Assembly: GCA_019689635.1 (NCBI GenBank) | Contig: JADGHB010000027.1 | Coordinates: 1-33,609 of the forward strand | Origin: Nevskia sp. | GTDB taxonomy: Bacteria > Pseudomonadota > Gammaproteobacteria > Nevskiales > Nevskiaceae | Length of the DNA: 33,609 nucleotides | Direction: 5' to 3' | Shown: piece by piece, positions 1 to 29,203 of the stretch | Numbering within the stretch: position 1 is the first letter of the stretch | How the letters are laid out: each line of letters begins with the position of its first letter | Notes under the pieces: model-generated | Database searches by the model: none | Told to the model about the DNA's origin: nothing | The model's input: the letters and a program-made list of their open reading frames with translations, nothing else | Position numbers and translations under genes: made by a program

Positions 1-174
1 TTCGGCGCGGTCCTGATCCTTGAGGTAGGTCTCGCTCCAGCGGCTGCGCGGCACGACCTCGCCGTTGAGTTCCACCGCGATCCGCCGGCCGCTCAGACGC
101 AGACGAGCGAGCAAATCCGCGACGGTGAGCGGGGAAGGCAGCGAAGTCGGTTCGCCGTTGAGGCGGATCTCCAT
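1..174 (-). CDS. thiS: Sulfur carrier protein ThiS (3' end outside window)
   Basis: ThiS is the small ubiquitin-fold protein that carries sulfur as a C-terminal thiocarboxylate to the thiazole synthase ThiG in thiamine synthesis. The 58 visible codons begin MEIRLNGEP, continue with a TVADLLARL helix and contain ELNGEVVPRSRW, matching the usual ThiS pattern of a short first strand, a 'leucine' helix and the 'N-x-x-VPR-x-x-W' segment. Family members are about 66 residues, so roughly eight residues, including the functional Gly-Gly end, lie beyond position 1. The ATG at 174 is preceded by a weak AGGT. A rho-independent terminator directly upstream separates it from the lipoprotein gene. Whether thiG follows cannot be seen. 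Confidence 0.85.
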   Translation of the reverse strand, partial: MEIRLNGEPTSLPSPLTVADLLARLRLSGRRIAVELNGEVVPRSRWSETYLKDQDRAE

Positions 175-240: not shown

Positions 241-906
241 TTACGGCGTCGGCAAGGGCGAGAACACGCCCACCCCGGTGCCGTCGCTGCACGCGTTGAC
301 CACGTTGAGCGTGGCCAGCGCGCCGGCAACGATCGGCGCAACCGTGATATCAACGGCATCGAAGGATTTGGTCGTCTTGATGCCGAGATAAAAAGGATTG
401 TTATTCGAGAGCAGTCCCAACAAATCCAGCGTCAACAGCTGGCTGAAAGTGCTGGACTCCTGCTGTGTACCACCCAGGAAGGTCGTGATCTTGATCTGCG
501 GCAGCACCGTAGCCGACAGTAGCAGCGGATTGGGCACGAACAAGGTGAATCCCGGAATCTGCCCCGCCGGATAGGTCACTCCCGAAGGGCCATTTACGCT
601 CAAGCCCACACCGGCGGTGAGCAGCGAAAGATCCAGATTGATCGAAGCGTAGTTGTTGGGATCACTGTCAATCACGTTGTTGGGATTGCTCACCGAACAC
701 AGCAGACACAGGCCGGTTTTATGGGTGGCCACGGAAGCACCGTTGCTGATCGAAGCCGTGCAGGCCGCTTGATTGCCGCCGGTGCCACCCGGCGTACCAC
801 CGGGATTCCCGCCGGCCCCGGTGCCGGGCCCGTTGGAAGTGCAAGCCAGAAGCAGCGTCGCCGCCGCCAGGCTGGTGCCGAACCTAAACAAGCTAACTCT
901 GCTCAT
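241..906 (-). CDS. Predicted lipoprotein with unrecognised CLxCSVSN domain
   Basis: This is a 221-residue exported lipoprotein of unknown function. A signal sequence ends in a lipobox, LLLAC, with the lipidated cysteine at residue 22. A Gly/Pro/Thr-rich linker (about 23-47) is followed by one domain (about 48-215). That domain contains CLLCSVSNPNNVIDSD and later FLGGTQQES, LDLLGLL and FDAV, all of which recur in the C-terminal domain of the large lipoprotein at 4070-6358. I do not recognise the domain. The ATG at 906 is preferred over a GTG at 921 because GGGAG lies just upstream of it and the signal peptide begins there. The gene starts 33 bases after the upstream OmpA-family gene, so they are probably one operon. 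Location in the outer membrane is inferred. Confidence 0.8.
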   Translation of the reverse strand: MSRVSLFRFGTSLAAATLLLACTSNGPGTGAGGNPGGTPGGTGGNQAACTASISNGASVATHKTGLCLLCSVSNPNNVIDSDPNNYASINLDLSLLTAGVGLSVNGPSGVTYPAGQIPGFTLFVPNPLLLSATVLPQIKITTFLGGTQQESSTFSQLLTLDLLGLLSNNNPFYLGIKTTKSFDAVDITVAPIVAGALATLNVVNACSDGTGVGVFSPLPTP

Positions 907-939
907 GATCGATACTCCCACGCAGTCCCTTGCGCATGT

Positions 940-2268
940 TCAGTTGAGGATATGCAACTCGACGCGGCGGTTGCGCTCGCGTCCTTCCGCAGTGGCATTG
1001 CTCGCCACCGGATCGGCCTTGCCGTAGCCCTTCGGGGTCACGCGCGAGGATTCGATGCCCTGGCTGACCAGGTAATCGCGCACCGCTTCCGCACGGCGCT
1101 GCGACAGCTTGAGGTTGTAGGCGTCGCTGCCGATGCTGTCGGTGTAGCCGGCGATCTCGACGTTCATGTCGGGATACTTCTTCATGATGTCCACCACCCA
1201 CTTCAAGATGGTCTGGGCATCCGGACGCAGGCGGGTCTTGTTGAACTCGAAGGTCACGCCGTCCAGGCGCACGACTTTCGGGATCGGGCAGCCGTCGCCG
1301 TCCACGCGCGTGTTGGGCGGCGTGTTGGGGCACTTGTCCTTCTCGTTGATGACGCCGTCGCCATCGTCGTCGCGCAGACCCCAGGGGATCTGCACCACAT
1401 TGACCTTCTCGGGCGGCACCGCCGGCACGGAGACGTTACGAGTCTCGTAGAAGGGAATCTCGATGCCGATACCGGCACGGACATCGTTGAACCCGGTGTG
1501 GGTCTCCGTGCTCATGAAATCGTGAAGGTAACGGCCTTCGGCGCGCAGCCGGATCCGGTTGTGCCAGAAAGTGCCGGTGACGAAGCCCAGGCCGGCGTCG
1601 AGGTAGCCCGAGGCGCCGTTGTTGACGCGCGGGTGCTCGTCGTTGAAGTCTCCGCCGCCGCCCAGGAGGATGTAAGGCGTGAAGTGCTGACGATCGCCGA
1701 AGTTGTAGACCAGGTCACCACCCAGGGTGTAGCGGTAGAGGTCGCCGCCACCATTGGGACCGGTCTCGATGTTGTCGTAGCCGAACACCGCTTCCCAGCC
1801 CCAATGGTTGGCGAAGTGGCGACCGTAGATGCCCATGCCGCCGCCGCCGTTGTGGACCTCGGGACCGTGTTTGTCGTCGGCGAACAGATAGTGACCCATG
1901 GCGCTCAAGTAATCGATGTCGCGCACGCCGCTCATCGCCTCGGCGGGCGCCGGCGCTTGCTCGCCGCTCGGCGCGGCCTCGGTCGTTTCGCCGCCGGCCG
2001 GCGCGGTTTCGCCGCCCGGTGCGGCTTCGGCCGCCCCGCTGGTATTGCTTTCGCTGCCCGCCGCGGGCGTTTCCGGATTCGCGGGGGTCTCGGTGCCACC
2101 GGCGGCTGGCGCCGCCGGCTGAGCGCTGCCCCCGGCGCCATTCTGATCCGTCACGCCGTTGTCCTGGGCGGGCGCGGCGTTTTGCTGGGCGGCCTGATCG
2201 TCCTGGGCGTAAACGGCGCCACACAAGGCCAGACCGCAGATGGCTACTAGCTTTGCTGAGCGATACAT
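940..2268 (-). CDS. OmpA family outer membrane protein
   Basis: A 442-residue OmpA-type protein: an N-terminal eight-stranded-type barrel anchors it in the outer membrane and a periplasmic C-terminal domain binds peptidoglycan. A signal peptide (1-21, cut after VYA) is followed by an unusually long Ala/Pro/Glu/Gly-rich segment (22-112), a barrel region (about 117-275), a calcium-type thrombospondin-3 repeat (DDDGDGVINEKDKCP, about 300-330) and the OmpA C-terminal domain (334-442) with VTFEFNKTRLRPDA and ERNRRVELHI. The start has a strong AGGGGG ribosome site. It is a paralogue of the protein at 2901-4001, which lacks the long low-complexity segment. The lipoprotein downstream is likely co-transcribed. 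Confidence 0.92.
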   Translation of the reverse strand: MYRSAKLVAICGLALCGAVYAQDDQAAQQNAAPAQDNGVTDQNGAGGSAQPAAPAAGGTETPANPETPAAGSESNTSGAAEAAPGGETAPAGGETTEAAPSGEQAPAPAEAMSGVRDIDYLSAMGHYLFADDKHGPEVHNGGGGMGIYGRHFANHWGWEAVFGYDNIETGPNGGGDLYRYTLGGDLVYNFGDRQHFTPYILLGGGGDFNDEHPRVNNGASGYLDAGLGFVTGTFWHNRIRLRAEGRYLHDFMSTETHTGFNDVRAGIGIEIPFYETRNVSVPAVPPEKVNVVQIPWGLRDDDGDGVINEKDKCPNTPPNTRVDGDGCPIPKVVRLDGVTFEFNKTRLRPDAQTILKWVVDIMKKYPDMNVEIAGYTDSIGSDAYNLKLSQRRAEAVRDYLVSQGIESSRVTPKGYGKADPVASNATAEGRERNRRVELHILN

Positions 2269-2628
2269 GAAAAGCCCCCTTGCCTCAAAAAAAGCGCGTC
2301 CTGCGCGTGATTATTCGCCCGGCACCTCGTCCTCGACGCGTCACGATCGAGAAACGATCGGGCATCGAAAATATAGCACACCGGTAGGGCGGAAAAATAA
2401 ATGTTCATCCACCGTATATGAGGGGAGCGTGTGTCACGCACGCGTCACGAAACTGAACAACGACCCGTAAAGCGCTCGAGCAGGGTTTCTTGCACCCGCT
2501 GGGGACCGTCGCGCCTTCCGCGCTGGTGCTTCTTGTGCCCGTTGGGGCAGGGGCTAGAATATGCCCATACGCGCAGCGGCAAGGCGCCCCATCGCCGCGG
2601 GGATGAAGCGCAGGGATTGAAACAAGGC
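2269..2628. other. Intergenic region between ompA-like gene and tRNA-Gly
   Basis: No gene is evident. On the minus strand a TATATT at about 2369-2374 could be the -10 of the OmpA-type gene, but no good -35 lies 17 bases further up. Short repeats occur (CGATCG twice near 2344-2359, GTCACG twice near 2434-2450). The plus-strand side carries the tRNA promoter listed separately. Confidence 0.4.
2533..2560 (+). promoter_or_regulatory. Probable promoter of tRNA-Gly
   Basis: TTGTGC (2533-2538) and TAGAAT (2555-2560) are spaced by 16 bases, upstream of the tRNA. TAGAAT is one base from the sigma-70 -10 consensus; the -35 is weaker. This would give a leader of about 60 nt before the mature tRNA. Confidence 0.5.
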
Positions 2629-2702
2629 GCGGGTGTAGTTCAATGGTAGAACTGCAGCTTCCCAAGCTGCTAACGTGGGTTCGATTCCCATCACCCGCTC
2701 CA
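2629..2702 (+). tRNA. tRNA-Gly (anticodon CCC)
   Basis: A full cloverleaf of 74 nt: acceptor arms GCGGGTG/CACCCGC, a D-arm with GTAGTTCAATGGTAGAAC, anticodon stem GCAGC/GCTGC with the loop TTCCCAA giving anticodon CCC, a T-arm with GGGTTCGATTCCC, and an encoded CCA at 2700-2702. It closely resembles the glyU-type tRNA that reads GGG. It lies between the two oppositely oriented OmpA-family genes. Confidence 0.97.
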
Positions 2703-2798
2703 CATTCTCGATTCCGCCGCCGTCGGGAACCTGCCGCAGACTGAAGGGCGTACTTGCGCCAGCGCACGTTTCGGCGATGCCAAAACGCGAAAATGCGA

Positions 2799-2827
2799 TT
2801 GACGAGGCCTCTGGAATCGTCGATATT
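2799..2827 (+). promoter_or_regulatory. Predicted sigma-70 promoter for the second OmpA unit
   Basis: TTGACG (five of six consensus bases) and GATATT (four of six) are separated by exactly 17 bases. Transcription would start near 2834, leaving a leader of about 67 nt before the OmpA-family start at 2901. Confidence 0.5.
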
Positions 2828-2900
2828 GACCAAGCACAGGGCCCGGTCGCAGGACCAGGGAGTTGGGGTTAAGGGACTCGCCTCTTTCAGGGAATCTCCA

Positions 2901-4001
2901 ATGCGTATCCACCGCACCGCATCGCTTGCGTTCTTCGTCCTGGGCGCGCCCGCCGTCGTGCTCGCCCAAACCGACGACACCGATATGAGTGTGCGCCAGC
3001 ACACGGAATTCGTGTCCGGCGATTACATCGCCATCCTGCCGGGTTACGCCATTCCCGACAGCGGCCGCGGCACCCAGCGCAACGGGTTCACGATGTCGAT
3101 CATCTACGGCAATCAGATGACGACTCATTTCTCGGTCGAGGGCAATGTCCAGGGCTCGATCTTCGAAACCGGCCGCGGCCATGGCACCGACTTCTACCAG
3201 TGGGGCGGCACCATCGACTTGGTGTATGGCCTGACCGACCGCCGCAGCTCGCCGTTCATGCCCTTCGCCCTCATCGGTCTGGGCGGCATGTACAACGACG
3301 TTTTTCCGCAGAACCGTTCGGCGGCCAGCTTCGTCGCCGAAGGCGGCATCGGTTTCGTCACCGGCTCGCTGTACGACGGCCTCAAGCTGCGCGGCGACGC
3401 GCGCTATGTGCGCGACACCTTCGAGAGCGGCTACAACGACTACCGTTTGATGCTGGGATTCGAAATCCCCCTGGGCCGGGTGATCGAGCGCGTGGTGGAA
3501 AAGCCGGTGCCGCAGGTGCAGGTCAAGGAAGTGGTCAAGGAAGTCCCGCGGCCCTGGGTCGATTCCGACGGCGATGGCGTGGACGACGAGCACGACAAAT
3601 GCCCCGGCACGCCGCACGGCCTCAAAGTCGATGCGGACGGCTGTCCGATCCCCGGCCAGGTCATTCCGCTCAACGGCGTGACCTTCGAGTTTAACAAGGC
3701 GCGACTGACGCCCAACGCCGAGACCGTGCTCGACGGCGTGGTGCCGGCGTTCACCGGCGAACCCTCACTCAAGGTCGAGATCGCCGGGCATACCGATGGC
3801 GTCGGTTCGGCCGCCTACAACCTCAAGCTCTCGCAGAAGCGCGCCGAGGCGGTACGCAACTACCTCATCAGCCGCGGCGTGCGACCCGATCAGCTCGTGG
3901 CCAAAGGCTATGGCAAGTCGCAGCCGCTGGTCAGTCCGGAACGCACCGCGGAAGACCGCGAGCGCAATCGCCGGGTCGAGTTCCGCATTCTGCAAAAGTA
4001 A
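2901..4001 (+). CDS. OmpA family outer membrane protein (second copy)
   Basis: A 366-residue OmpA-type protein with a signal peptide (1-22, cut after VLA), a barrel region (about 38-191), a hinge rich in Val/Pro/Lys, a thrombospondin-3 type calcium repeat (DSDGDGVDDEHDKCPGTP, about 221-238) and a C-terminal peptidoglycan-binding domain (about 255-366) with VTFEFNKARL, EIAGHTD and RERNRRVEFRIL. The ATG at 2901 was chosen over ATGs further up because it starts a clean signal peptide and has AGGGAA upstream. It is clearly related to the protein at 940-2268, with the same order of barrel, TSP3 and OmpA domains. A lipoprotein with the shared CLxCSVSN domain follows after 68 bases, mirroring the other unit. 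Confidence 0.92.
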   Translation: MRIHRTASLAFFVLGAPAVVLAQTDDTDMSVRQHTEFVSGDYIAILPGYAIPDSGRGTQRNGFTMSIIYGNQMTTHFSVEGNVQGSIFETGRGHGTDFYQWGGTIDLVYGLTDRRSSPFMPFALIGLGGMYNDVFPQNRSAASFVAEGGIGFVTGSLYDGLKLRGDARYVRDTFESGYNDYRLMLGFEIPLGRVIERVVEKPVPQVQVKEVVKEVPRPWVDSDGDGVDDEHDKCPGTPHGLKVDADGCPIPGQVIPLNGVTFEFNKARLTPNAETVLDGVVPAFTGEPSLKVEIAGHTDGVGSAAYNLKLSQKRAEAVRNYLISRGVRPDQLVAKGYGKSQPLVSPERTAEDRERNRRVEFRILQK

Positions 4002-4069
4002 CCGGCAAAGGTGAAACAAGGACGTTTGTTGATCGTTGAGAGCTAGCGAACGCTCAGGAGGGAGTCACC

Positions 4070-6358
4070 GTGGAATTCAAGCTTGATCGAGCGCAGCGCC
4101 GCTCTCGTACCGTCCCCGCCTTGGCCCTGCTCGTCGGCCTGATGCTGGCGGGCTGTTCCGCCAATGGCGGACTCGGCACCGGCGGCGGTGGTGGCAGCAG
4201 CGGTGGTGGTGGTGGCAGCAGTGGCGGCGGCGGTGTCGGTCCGACCGTGACCATTACCGCGACTCCGGGGCAGGTCGCCCCCGGGGGGACCGTCACCCTG
4301 AGCTGGTCGTCCAGCGATCCCAACGCCACCTGCACGGCTTCCAGCAGCGCGCCCGGCAGCACCTGGACCGGGACCCAGCCCAGCCACGGCACCCAGGAGG
4401 TCACCGTGCCGACCGCGTCGGGCAGCTATGCCTACGCGCTGTCGTGCAAGAATTCCGCTGGCACCGGCACCGGTACGGCGACCGTGCAAGTCGGCGCGAC
4501 CGGCGGCAACAGCCCCACGGTCACCATTCAGGCTTCCCCCGCGCAAGTGACGCCCGGCGGCGAGATCACCCTGACCTGGTCGTCGAGCGATCCCAGCGCC
4601 ACCTGCACCGCCTCGAGCAGCGACTCCGCCAGCGCTTGGAAAGGCACCGAACCGACTTCCGGAACCACCCAGGTGACCGCCGCGCAGACGCCGGGGAGCT
4701 ATGCCTACGCGCTGTCCTGCACCAATGCAGCCGGCACCGGTACGGGAACGGCGACGGTCCAGGTCGGCAGCGGCGGCGGCCCCGGGACTCCGCCGACCGT
4801 GACCCTCAATGCCACACCCGGCCAGGTCGCTCCCGGCGGCACCCTCAGCCTGACCTGGTCTTCCTCCGATTCCTCGGCCAGTTGCACCGCCTCCAGCACC
4901 GACAGCAATAGCACCTGGAAGGGAGCCCAGCCCGCAGCCGGCACGACCCAGGTGACCGCCGCGCAGACGCCAGGCACCTACACTTACAGCCTGAGCTGCA
5001 GCAACGCGGCCGGCAGCGGCGTGGGCACCGCTTCGGTGACGGTCGGGCAAGCGGCGGCGCCGACGGTGAACATCAGCGTCTCTCCGCCCGCGATTCAGGC
5101 CCAGCAACAGGGCCAGCCGGCCGAACTGGCCGTGGTGAAGTGGACCACCACCAATGCCACGAGCTGCAAGGCCAGCGGCGGCGATGGCGCCGATGGCTGG
5201 GACGGAAGCACGCAACCGACTTCCGGCAGCTTCAATGTCAGCGCACCGCCCACGCCGGGCACCTACGCCTACACCCTGACCTGTAGCGGCCCCGGCGGCT
5301 CCGGTGCGGGCACCGCCGATCTCACCGTGACCAGCGGCCCGGCGCCGACCGTCCAGATCACGCCGCACAGCCAGTCCATCCCGGTGGGCGGCACGGCCAG
5401 CTTCAGCTGGGTGAGCACCAACGTGTCCGTTTGCGAAGCCAGCGGGGCCTGGAGCGGCCAGCAGCCGGTCAACGGCAGCTTCAATACCGGTGCGTTGACC
5501 ACGGCCGGGGTTTACCAGTACACCCTGACCTGTAGCGGGTCCGCCGGTTCGGCGACCGATACGACCACGGTCACGGTCGGCACGCCGCCGCCGCCGACGG
5601 TCACGATTTCGGTCGCCCCGACCTCGATCCAGGGCGGGCAGTCCGCGACGCTGACCTGGTCCTCGACCAATGCCACCGACTGCACGGCCAGCGGTTCGTG
5701 GAGCGGCGACCGCCCGGTTTCCGGTACGGCCAGCACCGGCACGCTGAACACGGCCGGCGCTTATTCCTACACTCTGACTTGCACCGGTCCGTCGGGCAGC
5801 GCCGCGGCGAGCGCGCTATTGACCGTGACCAGCAACTTCGTGCCAGCGCCAGACTGCGGCGTCGGCTTCCCGACCGTCGCGCTGGTCGGCACGAACGCAA
5901 GCGCGACGTTCTCGGCCACGCAGACCTGCCTGGGCTGCTCGGTCAGCAACCTCGGCAACGTGACTGACACCGATCTCAGCAACTTCGCGACCATCAGCAC
6001 CACGCTCAACCTCCTCGGCTCGGCGAGCATCAACGTGACCAAGGGCAGCGTCTTCCCGGGCGGGCGCAAAGTCGGCTTCCTGGTGTCCACGCCCAACGCG
6101 CTGCTGCTCTCGCTGGGTCTCTTGCAGAACGTGACGCTGGAAACCTTCCTGGCCGGTCAGGCGCAGGAAACCGCCTCGACCAGCTCGTCGACGGCCGGTC
6201 TCGACCTGCTCGGTTTGATCAACAACCCGAACGAGTACTTCCTGTCGTTCACGACCAGCGCCGGGAAGAATTTCGATGCGGTGCAGATCAACGACGGGGG
6301 TACCGCCAACCTGCTGAGCGGACTCAACGTGTACGCGGCCTGCGTCTCCAGCCAGTAA
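4070..6358 (+). CDS. Surface lipoprotein with six Ig-like repeats and CLxCSVSN domain
   Basis: A 762-residue lipoprotein of unknown function. It begins with GTG, preceded by a perfect AGGAGG. The lipobox is LAGC (cysteine 29), followed by a Gly/Ser spacer (about 30-57). Six Ig-like repeats of about 83-97 residues follow (about 58-594); each opens with P-T-V and has a W in the second strand and two cysteines, suggesting one disulfide per domain. The C-terminal domain (about 595-762) has CLGCSVSNLGNVTDTD (cysteines 620 and 623), ETFLAGQAQETAS, LDLLGLI and FDAVQI, matching the lipoprotein at 241-906. The repeats look like a stalk projecting the end domain, possibly as an adhesin; this is inference. 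It is probably co-transcribed with the OmpA-family gene and ends at a strong terminator. Confidence 0.85.
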   Translation: MEFKLDRAQRRSRTVPALALLVGLMLAGCSANGGLGTGGGGGSSGGGGGSSGGGGVGPTVTITATPGQVAPGGTVTLSWSSSDPNATCTASSSAPGSTWTGTQPSHGTQEVTVPTASGSYAYALSCKNSAGTGTGTATVQVGATGGNSPTVTIQASPAQVTPGGEITLTWSSSDPSATCTASSSDSASAWKGTEPTSGTTQVTAAQTPGSYAYALSCTNAAGTGTGTATVQVGSGGGPGTPPTVTLNATPGQVAPGGTLSLTWSSSDSSASCTASSTDSNSTWKGAQPAAGTTQVTAAQTPGTYTYSLSCSNAAGSGVGTASVTVGQAAAPTVNISVSPPAIQAQQQGQPAELAVVKWTTTNATSCKASGGDGADGWDGSTQPTSGSFNVSAPPTPGTYAYTLTCSGPGGSGAGTADLTVTSGPAPTVQITPHSQSIPVGGTASFSWVSTNVSVCEASGAWSGQQPVNGSFNTGALTTAGVYQYTLTCSGSAGSATDTTTVTVGTPPPPTVTISVAPTSIQGGQSATLTWSSTNATDCTASGSWSGDRPVSGTASTGTLNTAGAYSYTLTCTGPSGSAAASALLTVTSNFVPAPDCGVGFPTVALVGTNASATFSATQTCLGCSVSNLGNVTDTDLSNFATISTTLNLLGSASINVTKGSVFPGGRKVGFLVSTPNALLLSLGLLQNVTLETFLAGQAQETASTSSSTAGLDLLGLINNPNEYFLSFTTSAGKNFDAVQINDGGTANLLSGLNVYAACVSSQ
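4241..5851 (+). repeat. Tandem Ig-like domain coding repeats (six)
   Basis: Six in-frame units, starting near residues 58, 149, 242, 331, 426 and 509 of the lipoprotein. Units 1-3 are very alike (each has GQV or AQV, PGG, TWSSSD or SWSSSD, CTASS). Units 4-6 form a second, more divergent group (TNATSC, TNVSVC, TNATDC; then TLTCSG or TLTCTG). This suggests stepwise duplication from two ancestors. Confidence 0.8.
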
Positions 6359-26691: not shown

Positions 26692-26707
26692 TGGCACGGA
26701 GACTGCA
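26692..26707 (+). promoter_or_regulatory. Sigma-54 promoter of pilA
   Basis: TGGCAC (26692-26697), five bases, CTGCA (26703-26707). The invariant GG and GC dinucleotides are 10 bases apart, as required, and only one base differs from the TGGCAC-N5-TTGCA consensus. Transcription would begin near 26718. Sigma-54 control by PilR is established for type IV pilin genes in Pseudomonas. Confidence 0.85.
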
Positions 26708-26768
26708 AGAATCGCTGTTGCGGCGACGGCCGCATTTCAAAACCCCAACCGTTAACGGAGTGAACCCC

Positions 26769-27197
26769 ATGAAAAGGATGCAACAGGGCTTTACCCTGAT
26801 CGAGCTGATGATCGTGGTGGCGATCATCGGCATCCTGGCCGCCATCGCGATTCCGGCCTACCAGGATTACGTGATCCGTTCCAAGGTGTCCGAGGGCCTG
26901 GCCCTGGCCGACGCGGCGAAGACCGCGGTCGCCGAAACTTGGCAATCCAAGGGAACGTTGCCGGGTGACAACGCCGCCGCAGGCCTTTCGTCAGCCGCCT
27001 CCATCACCGGCAACAACGTCAAGTCGGTGGCAGTAGGCGCCAGTGGCATCATTACCGTCACGTACAGCGACGCCAATACCAATCTAGGCGGTAAAACCAT
27101 TGTTCTGACGCCGACGACTGGCGTCGGTGGAATCAAGTGGGATTGCACGGGAGGCGATCTCGCCGGCAAGTATCGCCCGGCAAGCTGCCGTTCGTAA
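26769..27197 (+). CDS. pilA: Type IV major pilin (PilA)
   Basis: The main subunit of type IV pili. The 142-residue prepilin has a seven-residue leader ending in Gly, cut by PilD before the N-methylated phenylalanine: [19 protein letters not shown]. Glu5 of the mature protein is present. The globular head ends in a D-loop bounded by C126 and C140, and the chain stops two residues later with Arg-Ser. GGAG lies eight bases before the ATG. It has its own sigma-54 promoter and its own terminator, so it is a single-gene transcript. Its position inside a glycan cluster, directly before a GT-C glycosyltransferase, suggests the pilin is glycosylated; the terminal serine is one possible site. Confidence 0.96.
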
Positions 27198-27217
27198 GTC
27201 CTCTCACCGATATAGGG

Positions 27218-27247
27218 AAAGCCCGCTCCATGCGGGCTTTCTTTTTT
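27218..27247 (+). terminator. Rho-independent terminator of pilA
   Basis: AAAGCCCGC (27218-27226) pairs with GCGGGCTTT (27232-27240) over a 5-nt loop, then C and T6. It lies 20 bases after the pilA stop and eight bases before the next start codon. Confidence 0.92.
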
Positions 27248-27255
27248 CCGCTTTG

Positions 27256-29199
27256 ATGCCTGCGACCCAAACGGCCGTGCGCCGCGATTCATTCCTGGCC
27301 CTCGGGCTCTTATGCCTGTGCGGATTCGCGCTGTGGAGCTTCTGGCCCGGGCGCACGGGTCCCTTTCTCTTCGACGATTTTCCCAACCTGGCTCCGCTCG
27401 GCCTGTTCGGCGGCGTGCACGACTGGCGCTCGGCAGAACGCTTCATTTTCGGTGGGACCTCGGGACCGCTGGGGCGCCCTCTGGCGCTGGCCACTTTCCT
27501 GATCAACGATCACGCCTGGCCCAGCGACCCGGAACCGTTCAAGTACACGAACCTGATGCTGCACCTCCTCGCCGGTGTCGTCTTGTTCGCTTTCCTCCTG
27601 CAGCTGGAACGTGCAAATCCCCTCCGCAGGGTACCGCCCGGTTGGGCGGCTTGGTTCGCCACCGGAGCCTGGATGTTGAGCCCGCTGCAAGCCGCGCCCA
27701 TTTTCCTGACCGTGCAGCGGATGACGATCCTTTCGGGTCTCTTCGTTTTCGCCGGTCTGGCGCTGTGGACTGCGGGACGCAACCGGATCGCCGAAAACCG
27801 TCGCGGCGGCTACCTGCGGATGACCGCCGGCATCGCCGGCGGCAGCTTTTTGGCAGCGCTGTGCAAGGAAAACGGCGTTCTGCTGGCACCCTTGGCCTGG
27901 GTCGTCGAAGCCACACTGGCGCCTTTACCCCGCGAACGCACGGCGCGTCTCTGGAAGCTTGCGTTCCTGGGGCTGCCGTCTCTGGCGATCGTCGCTTATT
28001 TTGTCGTGCAATGGCCCGAGGTTCTCAACGGTTATCGCTGGCGCGATTTCACGCTCAGCGAACGGCTGATGACCGAACCCGGCATTCTCATCGATTACCT
28101 GCGCCACATATTTTTGCCGCGCATTACGACGACCATTTTCCGTGACGATTATCCACTGACGGTCTCTGTCAATGCACAGACCGTTGCGACTTGGCTGGGC
28201 TGGATTCTGGCCCTTGGAGCCGCGTTGATCGCACGGCGGAAAGCGCCGCTATTTTCATTCGCCGTACTGTTTTTTTTGGCCGGCCACGTCCTCGAATCCG
28301 GGCCGATCGCCTTGGAGCTGTACTACATCCATCGCAACTACGTGCCAATGGTCGGCATGCTGTTCGCGGTGGCCGCGGCCGTGGCGATCTTGCTGCGTCA
28401 CCATCCCCGCGTGACTTTCGCAATAGCGGCGGCCTACCTGGCGTTGTTGGCGGTTCTGACTCGCAGCGAAAGCCGTTATTGGGGAAACGAAGGCTTACTT
28501 GCAAACGCTTGGGCCGTTGAAAGACCCGCATCGCCACGCGCCGCATCGATGGCCGCCAATTATTGGAGTACTCGTGGCCAGCCAGACAAGGCGATTGCCC
28601 TCGTTGAGCGGACGCTGAGTTTGCAACCCGATTCTCTCTCGTTGTGGGTGGGCGATTATTACTTGCATTGCCTGGCCGGCAAGGAAAATCGCGCGATTTG
28701 GGAAAAGATTTGGGACGAGCTGCCCAAAGGTAGCCAAAATTTCGCGTTACTCGGAACCTTCGACACGCTGGCTTTGAACATCCGCGATCATACCTGCCGC
28801 GAGGTGACGATTCGGGATATCGCCATGGCTCTCGATCGGCTCAAGCAGAATCCCTACTTCGCCAGCGCCGATCTTCAATCCCAGATCAACTACAATCTTG
28901 CCATCTACTTCCTGGAACTCAACGAACATGCCGCGGCAGCCGGAGCGCTCGAACAGGCAATCAAACATGCACCGACGGTTTACGAGCTGGAACTGCTCGG
29001 CGATCTCTATGCCGAATACGGCGATAAGCAACGCGCGGCTGCAACTTATCGTCGTGCGCTGAAGATCAATTTCTACAGCAACGTTTACCGTCGTTTCCTA
29101 TTCGACAATCCTGAGACCGATGGGCTACGGAAAAAACTGGATGGATTGGACCCCATTAGTCGCGAGCACCCGAATGAAGTAAGCGCATTGAGTGAATAA
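27256..29199 (+). CDS. GT-C membrane glycosyltransferase with C-terminal TPRs (candidate pilin glycosyltransferase)
   Basis: A 647-residue integral membrane protein resembling PMT/TMTC-type GT-C glycosyltransferases, which move a sugar from a lipid carrier to a protein on the outer side of the membrane. The first outer loop carries the acidic pair D40-D41 (FLFDDFPNL), as expected for the GT-C active site. About ten hydrophobic helices follow (LMLHLLAGVVLFAFLLQL, the YYIHRNYVPMVGMLF region), and the last 200 residues are TPR-like helices (AIALVERTLSLQPDSLSLW, AAATYRRALKINFYSN). Its place right after pilA suggests pilin as acceptor, as with pilin-linked Tfp enzymes; this is inference. No ribosome site is evident, and the pilA terminator is immediately upstream, so its expression is unclear. 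Confidence 0.75.
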   Translation: MPATQTAVRRDSFLALGLLCLCGFALWSFWPGRTGPFLFDDFPNLAPLGLFGGVHDWRSAERFIFGGTSGPLGRPLALATFLINDHAWPSDPEPFKYTNLMLHLLAGVVLFAFLLQLERANPLRRVPPGWAAWFATGAWMLSPLQAAPIFLTVQRMTILSGLFVFAGLALWTAGRNRIAENRRGGYLRMTAGIAGGSFLAALCKENGVLLAPLAWVVEATLAPLPRERTARLWKLAFLGLPSLAIVAYFVVQWPEVLNGYRWRDFTLSERLMTEPGILIDYLRHIFLPRITTTIFRDDYPLTVSVNAQTVATWLGWILALGAALIARRKAPLFSFAVLFFLAGHVLESGPIALELYYIHRNYVPMVGMLFAVAAAVAILLRHHPRVTFAIAAAYLALLAVLTRSESRYWGNEGLLANAWAVERPASPRAASMAANYWSTRGQPDKAIALVERTLSLQPDSLSLWVGDYYLHCLAGKENRAIWEKIWDELPKGSQNFALLGTFDTLALNIRDHTCREVTIRDIAMALDRLKQNPYFASADLQSQINYNLAIYFLELNEHAAAAGALEQAIKHAPTVYELELLGDLYAEYGDKQRAAATYRRALKINFYSNVYRRFLFDNPETDGLRKKLDGLDPISREHPNEVSALSE

Positions 29200-29203
29200 C
29201 GCC

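Follow-up and report, generated by a model that had tools for sequence, protein, structure and literature searches.

Recurrent OmpA-lipoprotein gene pairs in Nevskia-like bacteria: a putative anchor-and-adhesin family with a predicted galactose-binding-like tip

The window analysed here is a 33,609-nucleotide stretch of DNA from Nevskia sp. (Gammaproteobacteria, Nevskiales, Nevskiaceae; GenBank assembly GCA_019689635.1, contig JADGHB010000027.1, positions 1 to 33,609 of the forward strand). Near its left end lie two OmpA-family genes, each followed by a lipoprotein gene, on either side of a tRNA gene:

1..174, minus strand: start of thiS (Pfam ThiS, E 8.5e-12), at the contig's left edge; marks the old flank of the site
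241..906, minus strand: lipoprotein 1, 221 aa, with lipobox, Gly-rich linker and C-terminal domain
280..762, minus strand: predicted galactose-binding-like C-terminal domain, copy 1 (alignment, profile, AlphaFold and Foldseek)
940..2268, minus strand: OmpA 1, with Ala/Pro-rich stretch, barrel, one TSP3-like repeat and peptidoglycan-binding domain
2629..2702, plus strand: tRNA-Gly(CCC)
2901..4001, plus strand: OmpA 2, with eight-stranded barrel, one TSP3-like repeat and peptidoglycan-binding domain
4070..6358, plus strand: lipoprotein 2, 762 aa, GTG start, with lipobox, Gly/Ser linker, Ig stalk and C-terminal domain
4238..5834, plus strand: six Ig-like repeats forming the stalk (by eye, limits approximate; PKD/Ig-type Pfam matches, K319L-like PKD 5.9e-07)
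5882..6346, plus strand: predicted galactose-binding-like C-terminal domain, copy 2 (alignment and profile)

This layout, with gaps of 33 bases between OmpA 1 and lipoprotein 1 and 68 bases between OmpA 2 and lipoprotein 2, was described in a first-pass annotation and is reproduced in the sequence. Both lipoproteins begin with a signal peptide and lipobox (LLAC-TSNG in lipoprotein 1, LAGC-SANG in lipoprotein 2), as judged by a simple pattern rule with no dedicated predictor. Between lipobox and C-terminal domain they differ in the way first reported: lipoprotein 1 has a Gly-rich linker of about 30 residues, and lipoprotein 2 has the six Ig-like repeats, counted by eye. In the 2.81 Mb genome to which the window belongs, the C-terminal domain is found twice, both times inside the window and both times paired with OmpA (2/2). 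Elsewhere in the window (26700-29200), a type IV pilin-like sequence, identified by eye, precedes a large membrane protein whose end is TPR-like; from its resemblance we take the latter to be possibly a pilin glycosyltransferase.

OmpA 1 and OmpA 2 are 45% identical across 334 columns. The first-pass annotation had given both proteins a barrel, a TSP3 calcium repeat and a peptidoglycan-binding domain. The last of these is clear: the C-terminal Pfam OmpA domain (PF00691) is matched at E-values of 8.5e-27 and 2.9e-25, or 93.8 and 88.9 bits against a cut-off of 27.2. The TSP3 assignment reduces to a single partial repeat in each protein (16 and 14.9 bits, under the Pfam cut-off of 25), and the barrel matches of both proteins also fall below cut-off. 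An AlphaFold model of OmpA 2, the one OmpA modelled, has the eight-stranded N-terminal barrel of the OmpA family, with eight long strands at residues 41-190 (pLDDT mostly >90 there; whole-model pTM 0.48), followed by a linker with the TSP3-like repeat and then the OmpA domain. An OmpA search of the window's genome gave 9 matches in 2.81 Mb, from which 8 OmpA genes were counted; five of the six other OmpA loci were inspected.

The two lipoprotein C-termini align beyond chance, at 43% identity (E 7e-23, an E-value for this one comparison), and the common domain proposed for them is thereby upheld. Its description as unrecognised also stands: Pfam and NCBIfam contain no family over the domain in either window lipoprotein, a Pfam search with 31 members of the domain alignment gave no credible relative (one chance-level match, E 0.055), and a search of PDB chain sequences gave nothing credible (best E 0.68). 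An AlphaFold model of the domain, built from the 31 sequences, has a pLDDT of 84.6. Its best Foldseek matches include CBM32 (2v72, E 9.4e-6, TM about 0.5) and F-type lectin domains, with phage tail proteins and others also present; the 22 matches at E <= 0.001 have modest query TM-scores of 0.36-0.56. The domain models as a galactose-binding-like (CBM32/F-lectin-like) sandwich. This likeness to CBM32, F-type lectin and discoidin-like domains is one of predicted fold: identity to the CBM32/F-lectin entries is only 8-15% in the structural alignments, and the CBM32/F5-8 type C Pfam model is matched by none of the 31 members at E 0.1.

The domain is encoded in 52 of 58 genomes of the family (single-sequence search) and in 69 of 85 genomes of the order (profile search). 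In an even sample of the class it was found in 6 of 369 genomes, three of the six, among them the genome of the window, being members of the order. When named genomes were searched with an alignment built at genus level, 13 loci were found: six from Nevskia sp. (a single genome bin supplying two), one from Lysobacteraceae, two from Gammaproteobacteria and four from Lewinella-type Bacteroidota. In the four Lewinella-type loci (L050-L053) the domain lies in large proteins, with up to 8 copies in one; in L051, the eight copies are accompanied by Ig/cadherin-type repeats. The CxxC seen in the window copies of the domain is not a general feature: it is present in 20 of 41 proteins of class I and 12 of 19 of class II (classes defined below).

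The first-pass annotation had inferred a two-component surface system, and the frequency with which OmpA neighbours the domain bears directly on this idea. We scored it in 100 same-family neighbourhoods plus the window, using script-called ORFs and profiles built for the domain and for the OmpA C-terminus. The 100 regions were taken best-scoring first, not at random, among the matches listed, and represent 47 genomes in addition to the window's own. Where domain ORFs overlapped, only the best was kept, giving 118, some of which may be false starts or frames (e.g. L096 7932-9125). In class I, the window type, OmpA lies directly upstream on the same strand within 150 bp; in class II, a divergent OmpA lies within 500 bp. 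By this rule OmpA is the direct neighbour of 60 of the 118 domain ORFs (41 class I and 19 class II), against an estimated rate of roughly 0.6% for a random gene (8 OmpA genes, about 2700 genes), and 42 of the 48 sampled genomes have at least one such pair. Seen from the OmpA side, 60 of the 80 OmpA ORFs in the 1.41 Mb of fetched sequence are class I or II neighbours of the domain; by chance, about 4 to 5 OmpA genes would be expected there (from 9 matches in 2.81 Mb). Fifteen of the 19 class II OmpAs carry 3-7 TSP3-type motifs, and four carry none by pattern.

The other 58 ORFs are unpaired by the rule: in 17 cases an OmpA is present but farther away or in an odd position, and in 41 the fetched stretch contains none. 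Eleven of the 41 lie near contig ends with <1.3 kb of sequence upstream and so could not be judged. Large two-domain proteins are mostly unpaired. In several same-genus genomes two consecutive OmpA ORFs precede a run of two or three domain ORFs (L098 4428-9558, also L096, L108, L113 and L116). Among 15 further loci, drawn from the matches listed in the family and order searches, outside the earlier sample, and assessed by eye, nine are paired: three class I, four divergent and two with OmpA just downstream. Mechanically called ORFs overlap in two of the divergent pairs (L197 and L201). Outside the family, 3 of 20 loci are paired, each in a different family of the order, with some of the 20 regions cut by contig ends. 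None of the seven loci in one family of the order (f6) is paired. The domain proteins at these seven loci (L178-L184; 460-1030 aa) have no OmpA neighbour and themselves contain TSP3-type motifs (as many as 26 by pattern), confirmed by Pfam TSP_3 in both proteins tested. We are confident that OmpA-lipoprotein pairing is a recurrent arrangement.

The paired proteins share a build. The simple lipobox rule is satisfied by 38 of 41 class I and all 19 class II proteins, compared with 0/89 for OmpA ORFs and 11/600 for other ORFs; the three class I proteins that fail it look lipoprotein-like by eye. Across all classes, the domain ends no more than 30 residues from the C-terminus in 113 of the 116 ORFs whose end is complete. 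The spacer between lipobox and first domain measures 26-582 residues in class I and 93-492 in class II, and is variously Gly/Ser/Thr-rich, Ig-like, Big_2 or TSP3 (L129 has 16 Pfam stretches). Complete unpaired domain ORFs lack a lipobox by rule in 12 of 37 cases, several of them small and secreted-looking. Six such proteins of about 180-220 aa (L097, L099, L109, L117, L146 and L149), with a signal-peptide-like start and no OmpA in the stretch (L097 being near a contig end), are perhaps a secreted branch of the family. A pattern just after the lipid Cys fits 20 of 41 class I lipoproteins and 0 of 38 other lipobox ORFs; the pattern was written after seeing the sequences, and because the control was crude we do not count it as evidence.

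Gene adjacency could also reflect shared regulation of envelope genes that travel together while their products do not interact, a reading for which the 58 unpaired ORFs count. The distances between OmpAs and between their domains bear on this point. After removal of four class I pairs whose OmpA ORF is <300 aa, 56 pairs remain (class I, 37; class II, 19), and over these the distances correlate with r 0.60; when domain partners are shuffled within each genome, a test resting on 13 genomes with 28 pairs, the mean r is 0.36 and 0 of 2000 shuffles reach 0.60. Linkage alone can make such distances correlate, and could yield part of this signal. The trees hold classes I and II largely apart, with four class II OmpAs inside the class I side, and require 2 (OmpA) and 4 (domain) changes of layout label versus about 16 in shuffles; support at the deep nodes of the domain tree is weak. 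Pairing occurs in two separate layouts, mostly in different OmpA clades, and this, together with a distance correlation beyond same-genome shuffles, argues against mere co-travel.

The window itself furnishes the other evidence for non-interacting partners. Its domain 1 falls outside the group of domains belonging to OmpA 1 orthologues, and closely related OmpA 1 genes have divergent domains. The sequence nearest to domain 1 (53% identity) is instead a copy at L054 (4051-6275), where two tandem domain ORFs occur with no OmpA on the 8.3 kb contig; the nearest OmpA 1 relatives have other domains. This likeness suggests that tips may have been exchanged between units. On balance we regard non-interaction as rather unlikely. 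The two-component proposal is supported by the pairing in both samples (60 of 118 and 9 of 15) and by the distance correlation, and OmpA and lipoprotein probably form a physical complex, a prediction we favour without holding it firmly.

Despite their mirrored layout, the two pairs do not appear to be a duplication in inverse orientation, as the first-pass annotation had proposed. In the OmpA tree, OmpA 1 groups with L056, L119 and L123, and OmpA 2 with L064, L066, L152 and L057, each grouping being strongly supported. The tRNA-Gly(CCC) adjoins the OmpA 2 orthologue in all four of the latter loci, and a tRNA search in the three OmpA 1 orthologue loci found none (0/3). In L064 the order is thiS-like gene, tRNA, OmpA 2, lipoprotein, RmuC, HNH and Mla-type genes, and thiS and tRNA are separated by <200 bases (264-455); the window has all of pair 1 in this interval (174-2629). 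The corresponding interval holds a JmjC-like gene in L066 (4366-6971) and a short-chain dehydrogenase plus a metal-dependent hydrolase in L152 (7157-10791). The stretch from thiS to tRNA-Gly(CCC) is therefore a site of variable content, near-empty in one relative and filled with different genes in others. The three longest inverted matches at the DNA level (25 of 36 matches shown) lie in the two OmpA genes and span 48-108 bases at 70-81%, as expected of diverged OmpA paralogues. We reject an in-place inverted duplication on the OmpA tree, the tRNA synteny and the flank comparison. Since the OmpAs have separate orthologues, the tRNA accompanies pair 2 and pair 1 sits between thiS and the tRNA, the mirrored arrangement looks as if two old paralogous units had come together at the variable site.

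The relatives of pair 2 also allow sequence identities to be compared, with not every gene present in every relative. Domain identity is the lowest of the genes compared (36-43%, versus 64-71% for OmpA 2); RmuC stands at 59-63%, the Mla-type genes at 62-69%, the HNH protein at 84%, a small gene linked to Mla at 50-59% and the thiS fragment at 45-58%.

Among known systems, TraA/TraB of Myxococcus, encoded by adjacent genes and responsible for outer-membrane exchange, is the closest in design that we found (PMC12045341, PMC3325183). TraB combines a beta-barrel, TSP3 repeats and an OmpA domain, and TraA is a surface protein, likely lipid-anchored, with a variable, lectin-like recognition domain on a repeat stalk. 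TraA has its PA14-like recognition domain near the N-terminus, followed by Cys-rich repeats and a C-terminal MYXO-CTERM anchor, whereas the window lipoproteins have the lipid at the N-terminus and the CBM32-like domain at the C-terminus; traA is first in its operon, whereas OmpA is first in class I pairs. Pfam and NCBIfam searches at E up to 1 found the PA14-like, Cys-rich and MYXO-CTERM features absent from both window lipoproteins. The TraB model NF033763 gives 106.9 and 93.7 bits with the two OmpAs against a cut-off of 700, over the TSP3/OmpA end only. Given these TraB scores and the opposite domain order, our best reading is that the pair would work like TraB/TraA without belonging to that family. 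The earlier view that no described system has this make-up thus needs qualifying, TraA/TraB being close in design.

In the open-licence literature, TraA/TraB was the only described design found to join OmpA, TSP3 and an outer-membrane lipoprotein; none was found there on Nevskia OmpA, on OmpA-discoidin lipoprotein adhesin operons or on a TSP3 surface lipoprotein with OmpA. TpgA and Ata of Acinetobacter resemble the pair in having an envelope partner gene beside an adhesin gene, the two usually present or absent together, but Ata is a trimeric autotransporter and not a lipoprotein (PMC6363060). The NCBIfam TpgA model, named as peptidoglycan-associated, weakly matches OmpA 1 (47 bits against a cut-off of 350).

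Outer-membrane lipoproteins lipidated at the N-terminus face the periplasm by default, and the lipoprotein could accordingly be periplasmic, bind the OmpA C-terminal domain and, with OmpA, sense or buffer the state of the envelope. We consider this possible but doubtful: stalks that reach 580 residues, built of Ig, Big_2 or TSP3 repeats and ending in a domain, are typical of surface proteins, and no other gene compared has an identity as low as the domain's. The model for such a sensor would be RcsF of E. coli, an outer-membrane lipoprotein complexed with OmpA, which according to PMC7553776 acts as a stress sensor and contacts OmpA at its periplasmic domain, not at its barrel; it is likened here by description, not by sequence.

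The first-pass annotation had also raised the possibility that the OmpA barrel exports its lipoprotein. The class I gene order, OmpA and then lipoprotein, would suit an export channel, as would RcsF complexed with barrel proteins, its lipidated end on the surface (PMC4942254). We nevertheless find export very unlikely, as the OmpA 2 model has only eight barrel strands and, according to PMC7553776, the barrel of two-domain E. coli OmpA has no open channel for the RcsF linker.

That OmpA anchors its lipoprotein, on the other hand, is plausible. Under this anchoring reading, OmpA would sit in the outer membrane via its eight-stranded barrel and grip peptidoglycan with its C-terminal domain. The lipoprotein would be tied to the same membrane by its lipidated N-terminus and carry the galactose-binding-like domain at its far end, on a stalk that varies in length and make-up among species and presumably points outward. 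The tip may bind a ligand on cell surfaces, such as a glycan, and OmpA may hold the lipoprotein through its barrel loops or its periplasmic domain, passing pulling forces to the cell wall. Whether each unit is in fact an operon for such a surface device, a peptidoglycan-anchored OmpA with a stalked, adhesin-like lipoprotein, we judge evenly balanced, and surface adhesion is a putative function to which we give equal weight. The OmpA-lipoprotein pairs of Nevskia-like bacteria look like an undescribed anchor-and-adhesin family.

Nevskia forms rosettes, and Nevskia-type bacteria dwell in surface films. In a bolder reading, which we consider improbable, the pair would be an independently arisen gammaproteobacterial counterpart of TraA/TraB, in which a wall-anchored OmpA holds a fast-varying, stalked, lectin-like lipoprotein and the latter recognises other cells. 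Species would then reshuffle stalk and tip while keeping the anchor, and the outcome might be kin or partner recognition, perhaps in rosettes. A recurrent pair with a domain named in none of the family libraries searched would give Nevskia-type bacteria a candidate attachment or recognition system, and would suggest that an OmpA wall anchor with a stalked, variable tip evolved more than once. It would also make many natural pairs available for asking how OmpA holds an outer-membrane lipoprotein.
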